A stretch of 64,000 nt of DNA, taken from positions 62,001-126,000 of the forward strand of contig NZ_CANLTR010000002.1 in the NCBI RefSeq assembly GCF_947494055.1. Direction: 5' to 3'. The stretch comes from an uncultured Jannaschia sp. (GTDB lineage: Bacteria > Pseudomonadota > Alphaproteobacteria > Rhodobacterales > Rhodobacteraceae). The translations under genes were made by a program, and so were the position numbers. Position 1 is the first letter of the stretch; each line of letters begins with the position of its first letter. A model generated the notes under the pieces. The model was not told the origin of the DNA. It saw only the letters and a program-made list of their open reading frames with translations, and ran no database searches. This document shows, piece after piece, positions 1,768 through 44,292 of the stretch.

Positions 1768-2672
1768 TCAGCTCCGTTTCAGCTTGGGGTCGAGCGCGTC
1801 GCGCAGCCCGTCGCCCATCAGGTTGATCGCCAGCACGGTGACGAGGATGGCGAGGCCGGGGAAGGTCACGACCCACCAGGCGCGCAGGATGAACTCGCGC
1901 GCCTCGGCCAGCATCGTGCCCCATTCCGGCGTCGGCGGCTGCGCCCCCATGCCGAGGAAGCCGAGCGCGGCGGCGTCGAGGATCGCGGTCGAGAAGGAGA
2001 GCGCGGCCTGCACGATGATCGGCGCAAGGCAATTCGGCAGGACGGTCACGAACATCAGCCGGAAGTAACCGGCGCCGACCACCCTGGCCGAGGTGACGTA
2101 GTCCTTCTGACGCTCGGACATGACGCTTGCGCGGGTGAGGCGGACGTAATGCGGCTGGAGCACGATGGCGATGGCGATCATCGCGTTCAGGAGCGACGGC
2201 CCCAGCACCGCGACCAGCACCAGCGCGAGGAGGAGCGACGGGAAGGCCAGGATGATGTCCATGATCCGCATGATGATCGCGTCGAGCCAGCGTGGCGCAA
2301 ACCCGGCCACGAGGCCCATGAGGATGCCGCCCGTGGCCGCGATGGCGACGACGACGACACCGACGAAGAAGGAGAACCGCGCGCCGACGATCAGACGCGA
2401 GAGCAAGTCGCGGCCGAGCGGGTCGGTCCCGAGGAAGAAGCGCCATTCCCCGCCGGCTTGCCAGACGGGCGGCTGGAGCGTCGCGCTGCGGAACTGCGCG
2501 GTCGGGTCGTGCGGCGCGATCCAGGGGCCGAACAGCGCGAGGAATGCGAAGACGGCGAAGATCGACAGGCCGATCACAGCGCCCCGGTTCTCCCGGAAGT
2601 AGAACCAGAACTCACGCAGGCGGCCGGGGCGTTCCTCGACCATCGCGGCTTCGGCGGAAAGGGCCTCGTCCA

Positions 2673-2673
<1 letters not shown>
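1768..2673 (-). CDS. dppC: Dipeptide ABC transporter permease DppC
   Basis: 301-residue inner-membrane permease. A cytoplasmic N-terminus is followed by the first helix (about residues 32-52), then the OppC_N and BPD_transp_1 regions with five further helices. The EAA-type coupling loop is visible in the stretch around ASVMSERQKDYVTSARVVGA. The highly conserved segment FLGTDPLGRDLLSRLI near residue 82 is typical of DppC/OppC periplasmic loops. The ATG at 2673 shares one base with the dppB stop (TGATG), so translation is probably coupled. With DppB it forms the channel for peptides delivered by DppA. Confidence 0.94.
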
Positions 2674-3673
<1,000 letters not shown>

Positions 3674-42662: not shown

Positions 42663-43787
42663 ATGGCGGTAGACGATGACTGGCACCAGACCGGCGACGT
42701 GCCTCATGCGCAGGGGCGCGGCGATCCGTTCGCGGCGGCCGTGCGGTCGACCCGGATGCCGATGCTCGTCTCCGATCCACGCCAGCACGACAATCCGATC
42801 GTCTTCGCCAACGACGCTTTTCTGAAGCTGACCGGCTATGCACGCGAGGAGGTCCTCGGCCGCAATTGCCGCTTCCTCTAGGGACCCCGCACCGACCCGG
42901 AAAGGCTGAACGAACTGCGTGAGGCCATCGCGCGGGAGGAGGCGATCCAGATCGACCTGCTGAACTACCGCAAGGACGGCACGGCGTTCTGGAACGCCCT
43001 CTTCGTCGGGCCGGTCCACGGCGACGACGGCGCGGTGCAGTTCTTCTTCGCCTCCCAGATCGACGTGACCGACCGGGTCGAGGCGCAGGAGAAGGTCGCC
43101 CATCAGAAGGCGCTGTTCGAGGCCGAGGTCGAGGCGCGGACGCGGCAGCTGAAGGACGCGCTCGCCACCAACGAGCGGGCACTGGAGGAGAAGACGATCC
43201 TACTCCACGAGGTCGATCACCGGGTAAAGAACAACCTTACGATGATCGGCTCCCTCCTTCGGTTGCAGGCGAACGCGATCGACGACCCGCGGCTCGTCCG
43301 CACGCTCGGCACGATGCTCGAGCGCATCGACGCGCTCGCCACCGTCCACCGGACGCTGCACCAGAGCCCGGACATCCGCCGGTTCGACGTCGGCGGTTTC
43401 CTCCAAGGTCTGGTCGCCGACGTGCTCGCGATCGCGGGACGGACCGACATCGAGGTCGTGGACCGCATCGAGGCGGTGGATATCGAGGCAACGAAGGCCA
43501 CCGCGCTCGGCCTCGCGCTGAACGAGCTTCTGACCAACGCGGTCAAGCACGCCTTCACGGGTGGCCGATCCGGTCGCCTGACGGTCGCCGCTCGGCGCGA
43601 GGGGGATGCGGTCGTGGTCGAGCTCGGCGATGACGGTCCGGGCTTCGATCCCGGGACCGACAGCCGGTCGTTGGGGCTCGTTCTGGTCGGACGTCTGTCG
43701 CGTCAACTCGACGGTACGACGGAATGGACTAGTTCCGAACATGGGACCACGAGCAGAACCCGGTTTCGTTCAGAGCCGGCTGAATAA
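42663..43787 (+). pseudogene. LOV-domain sensor histidine kinase with an in-frame amber stop
   Basis: The reading frame encodes a LOV photosensor (about residues 25-140) and a HisKA_2-type kinase core (phosphoacceptor His186 in HEVDHRVKNN), with an HATPase domain (N-box NELLTNAVKHAF, G-box GDDGPGFDPG). The photoactive Cys69 sits in GRNCRFL. The next codon, normally CAG in the invariant NCRFLQGP, is TAG (42879-42881), and the frame then continues GPRTDPERLNEL without any other lesion. A single C-to-T change explains it. Without suppression only a 72-residue fragment is made. Start is ATG 42663 or GTG 42651. A response regulator gene follows 13 bases later. Recent nonsense mutation, sequencing error and readthrough are all possible. 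Confidence 0.85.
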
Positions 43788-43800
43788 GGGCGGTATTCCG

Positions 43801-44292
43801 ATGATGCAGGATCATGCGGGCCTGCGGATCGTCGTGGTCGAGGACGAAGCCCTCATCGTGATGGACCTTGAATTGATGATCGAGACGGAAGGGCACCGAA
43901 TGGTGGCGGATGCCCCGAGTGTGCGCGCGCTGCGCGCGCTCGATACCGATCTCGAGGTGGACGTGGCATTCGTCGATCTGCACCTCGCCGAAGGGTCCTC
44001 CGGACTCGACGCGGCCGACTACATCCGCGCGACCTGGCCCGAAGCGCTGATCGTCTTCGTGACCGCCAATCCGCGGATGCTGCTGCCGGAGATCGAACGA
44101 GGCGATGCCGTCGTTCCCAAACCCTTCTCGACCGGCGTGGTCGAGGCGGTGCTCGCGTTCCTGCACGGCGGGATCAAGGCGCCGCCGCCGCTCGTGAACG
44201 CGCCGAACGGCTTTTACATGCGGCCGGAGCTCAAGGCGCGGCTGGGCTATCGCAGGCCCGCCGCGCCCCAGTACGTCAGACGTACCGATTGA
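43801..44292 (+). CDS. Single-domain response regulator, partner of the LOV kinase
   Basis: 163-residue receiver protein with no DNA-binding output. Acidic pocket residues ([10 protein letters not shown]), phospho-acceptor Asp59 (AFVDLHL), Thr in VFVTANP and Lys107 (VVPKPFS) are all present. The tail beyond residue 125 is short and Pro-rich. It starts 13 bases after the kinase gene stop with GGGCGG upstream, so it is the natural phosphotransfer partner of that LOV kinase. Its 3' end overlaps the convergent xylA by 17 bases. Output could be protein binding, as for other kinase-linked single receivers. Confidence 0.9.

Follow-up and report, generated by a model that had tools for sequence, protein, structure and literature searches.

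Alphaproteobacterial LOV histidine kinases of the HisKA_2/HWE group combine an NCRFL-G LOV domain with HisKA_2 and ATPase domains, and an adjacent gene encodes a response regulator. In passages of one account of LOV photochemistry, N94 of YtvA is described as bonding to Q66, and recovery times are given for the Q66H variant; the same passages note that EL222 carries an Ala at the Q66 position, which is linked to non-Arrhenius adduct decay (PMC4161478). For AsLOV2, Q454 possibly contacts the ribityl hydroxyls and Q513 is the rotating glutamine, according to excerpts of PMC8246142. A Q66L replacement in a LOV-derived fluorescent protein is reported to lead to loss of function (PMC4041573, in part). 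Among open-licence papers, none was found on EL222 A79Q in a LOV context and none on nonsense pseudogenes of LOV histidine kinases.

The gene described here has the architecture of the HisKA_2/HWE group, including the adjacent regulator, and differs in that its frame is interrupted. It lies in a 64,000-nucleotide stretch (the window) of a contig from an uncultured Jannaschia sp. The original prediction placed an in-frame TAG after the sequence GRNCRFL of a LOV kinase, within positions 42871-42890, and this was confirmed by translation (Table 1). The frame starts with the ATG at 42663, reads MAVDDDW...GRNCRFL, then TAG, then GPRTDP..., and ends with a stop at 43785-43787. Very probably a recent nonsense mutation inactivated the kinase of an accessory two-component pair, which would make the gene an ordinary recent nonsense pseudogene.

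Table 1. Features of the interrupted LOV kinase locus (positions within the window)
Feature	Position	Strand	Description	Basis
LOV-HisKA_2 histidine kinase gene, interrupted	42663..43787	+	374 codons plus final stop, one internal TAG	Translation, Pfam, orthologue 84% identical over 374 residues
Premature TAG	42879..42881	+	Codon 73, four codons 3′ of photoactive Cys69	Translation, motif scan, alignment
Stretch 5′ of the TAG	42663..42878	+	72 codons, N-terminal half of the LOV domain	Translation, Pfam
Rest of the frame	42882..43787	+	Second LOV half, linker, HisKA_2 (EVDHRVKNN), ATPase domain	Translation, Pfam
Partner response regulator	43801..44292	+	Intact, one Response_reg domain found	PF00072 above cut-off

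Cys69 and the NCRFL-G motif are present and the sequence aligns with solved LOV domains, which points to a LOV domain. The nearest PDB sequences include chains termed 'blue-light-activated histidine kinase' (6ph4, 4r3a and 3t50). Pfam places PAS_9 at residues 42-137 (77.7 bits), HisKA_2 at residues 183-255 (72.9 bits, above cut-off) and HATPase_c_2 at residues 269-363 (46.6 bits, above cut-off); the phosphoacceptor and ATPase domains of a LOV histidine kinase are therefore both found, and the frame departs from that class by its TAG at codon 73. Downstream of the TAG, 301 codons are open up to the terminal stop, and the earlier observation that the remainder of the kinase is open, with His and ATPase regions, stands. 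The partner regulator, also predicted to be intact, has a Response_reg domain (PF00072) above cut-off spanning 43807-44289, and is 79% identical to the sister copy with a dN/dS of 0.222. ARAGORN lists a tRNA-Arg at 43608-43699 inside the kinase frame; it is missing from the genome-wide Rfam tRNA list and is considered a false positive.

The closest orthologue is found in uncultured Jannaschia sp. isolate 2-243 (L077). It shares 84% protein identity over 374 residues, its frame is wholly open, and it has CAG at the codon equivalent to codon 73. The two loci have a common gene order, with an RpiR-like regulator upstream and the response regulator and xylA downstream (the neighbour names RpiR, xylA and hutG are labels assigned from sequence). 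Thus the two genes share gene order and length and differ at codon 73, CAG in the one and TAG in the other; this bears out the proposal that TAG stands in place of CAG, and the open frame at the same locus marks the stop as premature, as in a nonsense pseudogene. The same-genus genome G017 also has this kinase gene (L089). A response regulator match adjoins the kinase in all nine relatives chosen for the check.

In pairwise comparison with the sister copy, a measure blind to a short recent period, the kinase frame as a whole has a dN/dS of 0.179; the ratio is 0.127 in codons 1-72, 0.222 in codons 74-150 and 0.186 in codons 151-374, which indicates purifying selection on both sides of an isolated stop in a gene whose orthologue is open. 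Six of the seven neighbouring genes compared show values of 0.084-0.222, and the seventh, ThuA-like and a partial match, 0.481. An alignment with 79 relatives (L009-L088 minus L078) reveals nine departures of the present kinase at columns conserved at 90% or above. Eight of these also occur in the sister, which leaves the stop at position 73 as the sole private loss; the sister itself has four private departures at such columns. The putative flipping glutamine, Q132, is kept.

The distribution of other amino acid changes is less even. When changes are polarised by L009, codons 74-150 have six private to the present gene and none private to the sister, as against three and three in codons 1-73 (the stop being one of the present gene's three) and seven and eleven in the rest of the frame. 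In addition, the LOV tree gives the present gene a branch of 0.15 and the sister one of 0.06. These two features are weak evidence for a mild relaxation that would predate a 'very recent' loss, or they may be noise. Accordingly, the statement that the kinase shows no other damage holds for conserved columns, where there is no further private departure, and is tempered by the six-to-none ratio and the longer LOV branch.

The absence of another private departure at conserved columns, together with low pairwise dN/dS on both sides, implies that the lesion is very recent or that the base is in error. Such a clean pattern is expected of an erroneous base as well as of a rescued gene. Were the TAG due to a wrong base call, to misassembly or to a minority variant of a mixed population, living cells would have an intact kinase; the genome is a draft of 276 contigs (4.75 Mb; completeness 100 and contamination 0.77 by tool figures). 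This raises the question of whether the assembly contains other interruptions of the same kind. It was addressed by a comparative test in which, to either side of a stop, synonymous and BLOSUM-scored changes must favour the reading frame over the other five. The test was devised after three cruder detectors had failed and with prior knowledge that the stop at 42879 should pass. Its sample was 171 kb of the genome's own DNA aligned to G017, out of 304 kb compared, and its power is about 64%: of 766 codons drawn at random from the 31,250 in 77 validated open segments, 490 pass. Only one of 448 candidate stops absent from G017 has coding evidence on both sides, and it is the stop at 42879. In the reverse test on the sister genome, none of 417 candidates passed.

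At the tenth scale of this sample, the assembly is thus neither error-ridden nor rich in TAG-interrupted genes. The isolation of the interruption fits a single wrong base, and the lack of other passing sites in 171 kb argues against an assembly prone to such errors. Furthermore, real pseudogenes are commoner in bacterial genomes than wrong substitutions in a consensus of adequate depth. A base error or minority variant is therefore unlikely, though it deserves more weight than the other alternatives considered below. The three earlier detectors were dropped. Codon usage gave 23 sites in this genome and 31 in the sister, missed 42879 and was not discriminating. Open reading frame by open reading frame tblastn scored 32 of 130 and 22 of 131 matched frames as 'interrupted', many of them judged antisense, and did not catch 42879 in its own frame. 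Third-position substitution bias alone gave 74 and 92 sites, mostly stops common to both genomes, and also missed 42879.

The residue at codon 73 is highly conserved. Of the 79 relatives in the alignment, 78 have Gln in this column. A scan of three forward frames of 89 loci gave 92 NCRFL-type motif matches, in which the following codon is CAG 61 times, CAA 28 times, and AAG, TCA and TAG once each; as residues these are 89 Gln, one Lys, one Ser and one stop, that of the present gene. The Lys codon is in the motif of the matched gene in L030, and the Ser codon is in a second LOV-like motif in L036; these versions are possible natural photocycle variants. From its position four residues after the Cys, codon 73 would be the counterpart of YtvA Q66 and AsLOV2 Q454, which the cited passages put close to N94 and the ribityl chain. 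The 'flipping' glutamine (Q123/Q513) would, by alignment, correspond to Q132 of the present kinase, which is intact. On these partial accounts the codon 73 residue matters, yet it varies between LOV proteins and is distinct from the flipping glutamine. The original prediction had called it the invariant Gln, at the very position that tunes flavin photochemistry. High conservation is borne out, and invariance is not, as Lys and Ser occur and EL222 has Ala in the passages seen of PMC4161478. A place near the ribityl chain agrees with the second description, and the flipping residue lies elsewhere.

A stop at this position was also searched for with the pattern NCRF(L/F)-TRR-GG in 385 Alphaproteobacteria genomes. 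Three genomes matched, and only the present gene is LOV; the other two candidates, L181 and L183, are non-LOV on translation. The same motif position carries CAR at 29 sites in 23 of the 385 genomes, as pattern matches that are not each confirmed as LOV. A CCAGG context is typical of Dcm methylation, and the ancestral codon may have been in CCAGG. A deamination hot spot was not supported, as no match to TIGR00675 (cytosine-C5 methyltransferase) was present in the draft genome; the control for this model gave matches in 10 of 14.

If the TAG were read as Gln or another residue, by amber suppression or programmed readthrough, a full LOV kinase would be produced, and the conservation of the frame past the stop, with low dN/dS, is what such decoding would leave. 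The search for amber-suppressor tRNA genes, suggested as a check of the original prediction, yielded no CTA anticodon among 37 tRNAs found with the Rfam model and typed by ARAGORN. As this list is incomplete, it is no proof that such a tRNA is lacking. In the draft genome, neither Rfam matches typed by ARAGORN nor a pattern search revealed tRNA-Tyr, and some further tRNAs that would be expected were missing too, which leaves room for an unlisted suppressor; the tRNA-Tyr gene is probably divergent or lies in an assembly gap. A search pattern for tRNAs with a CTA anticodon matched at three sites, as against 19 for the reversed control pattern, and one of these is a tRNA-Arg(TCT) while ARAGORN reports no tRNA at the other two.

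Other properties of the genome also argue against decoding of the TAG. Release factor RF1 is intact (468 bits against a cut-off of 423). The 77 validated open segments are terminated by TAG 13 times, TGA 60 times and TAA 4 times, which shows TAG in use as a normal terminator. The in-frame TAG is neither conserved in orthologues and other LOV genes examined nor found to recur in other genes, within 171 kb and at about 64% power. The amber suppressor or readthrough proposal thus finds no support and is extremely improbable. The same can be said of its more specific form: an unlisted suppressor tRNA or strong near-cognate readthrough would decode the TAG, only a fraction of the kinase would be made, and a residue other than Gln beside the flavin ribityl chain would alter the photocycle. 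Were it true, it would be a striking case of a stop codon that governs both the dose of a light sensor and its chemistry; the evidence, however, points the opposite way. Nothing points to an unusual genetic code or to recoding, and the evidence against either is strong but, with tRNA-Tyr unfound and the tRNA list incomplete, not final.

A different outcome of the stop would be a restart downstream, yielding a light-blind kinase that lacks the LOV domain and still works with the regulator. The first in-frame downstream start, GTG at 43035, opens a frame of 250 residues with the HisKA_2 and ATPase domains. By eye, the 20 bases 5′ of this GTG and of the GTG at 43065 have no Shine-Dalgarno-like stretch, so that little of such a kinase, or none, would be expected. 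In frame, an ATG follows only at 43242 (codon 194), within HisKA_2, and there is no sign of selection for a LOV-less product. A working restart is accordingly very unlikely.

Of the options offered by the original prediction, a very recent loss fits best: the stop stands alone, conserved columns show no further private change, dN/dS is low on both sides, and no other interruption passed the test in 171 kb. With a recent nonsense pseudogene as the preferred reading, the consequences may be outlined as predictions from the sequence. Translation would end at RF1 after 72 residues. The resulting fragment, with only one half of the LOV fold and no kinase part, would be unstable and degraded. The full kinase would not be made, and at most traces of a protein without LOV would arise from a weak internal start. 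The regulator at 43801-44292 would keep its domain and lose its cognate light input, and light signalling through it would be lost or passed to other LOV proteins of the genome. The time since the mutation would have been too short for more lesions.

The gene is accessory. At E 1e-80 or better it is found in two of 20 same-genus genomes and in three of 394 drawn family genomes, the present genome included in both counts; in the family count five candidates were scored per genome and G017 is not listed. Three further LOV frames of the present genome are open and contain NCRFLQG, with both the Cys and the Gln; in a fourth LOV relative (L004) the motif was not found in the scan. In a LOV tree of 93 rows, with bootstrap not settled and some long branches, the present gene, L077, L009 and L078 form one clade (100/99). 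This clade adjoins Aurantimonas with weaker support (96/77) and is apart from L072 (Paracoccus) and L082 (Rubellimicrobium), a placement that would fit a gene moving between lineages.

Two related sequences also have irregular frames. In L078 (positions 2188-3302, contig 66 of uncultured Rhodobacteraceae 2B2-18-3Z), the LOV half is open and the kinase half is in another frame; it is about 80% identical to the present kinase across the first 209 of 374 residues. This copy may also be broken, or may carry an indel error. L009 is a second, open copy on a different contig of the 2B2-18-3Z assembly. In L049 (3001-4083, Novosphingobium guangzhouense) a LOV kinase frame stops about 39 codons past the start of the motif, in a match that spans residues 5-371, and this is possibly another interrupted copy.

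As in bacterial nonsense pseudogenes generally, the present gene has one premature stop, an open orthologue and an accessory distribution, in a genome with further LOV frames. It differs in having no second lesion at conserved columns, and would therefore be at the very start of decay. The locus would hold an accessory photoreceptor gene that has only just been broken, of little significance in itself, and would be an example of LOV-kinase turnover near Jannaschia. It also serves as a caution that a single stop at a conserved site does not amount to recoding.
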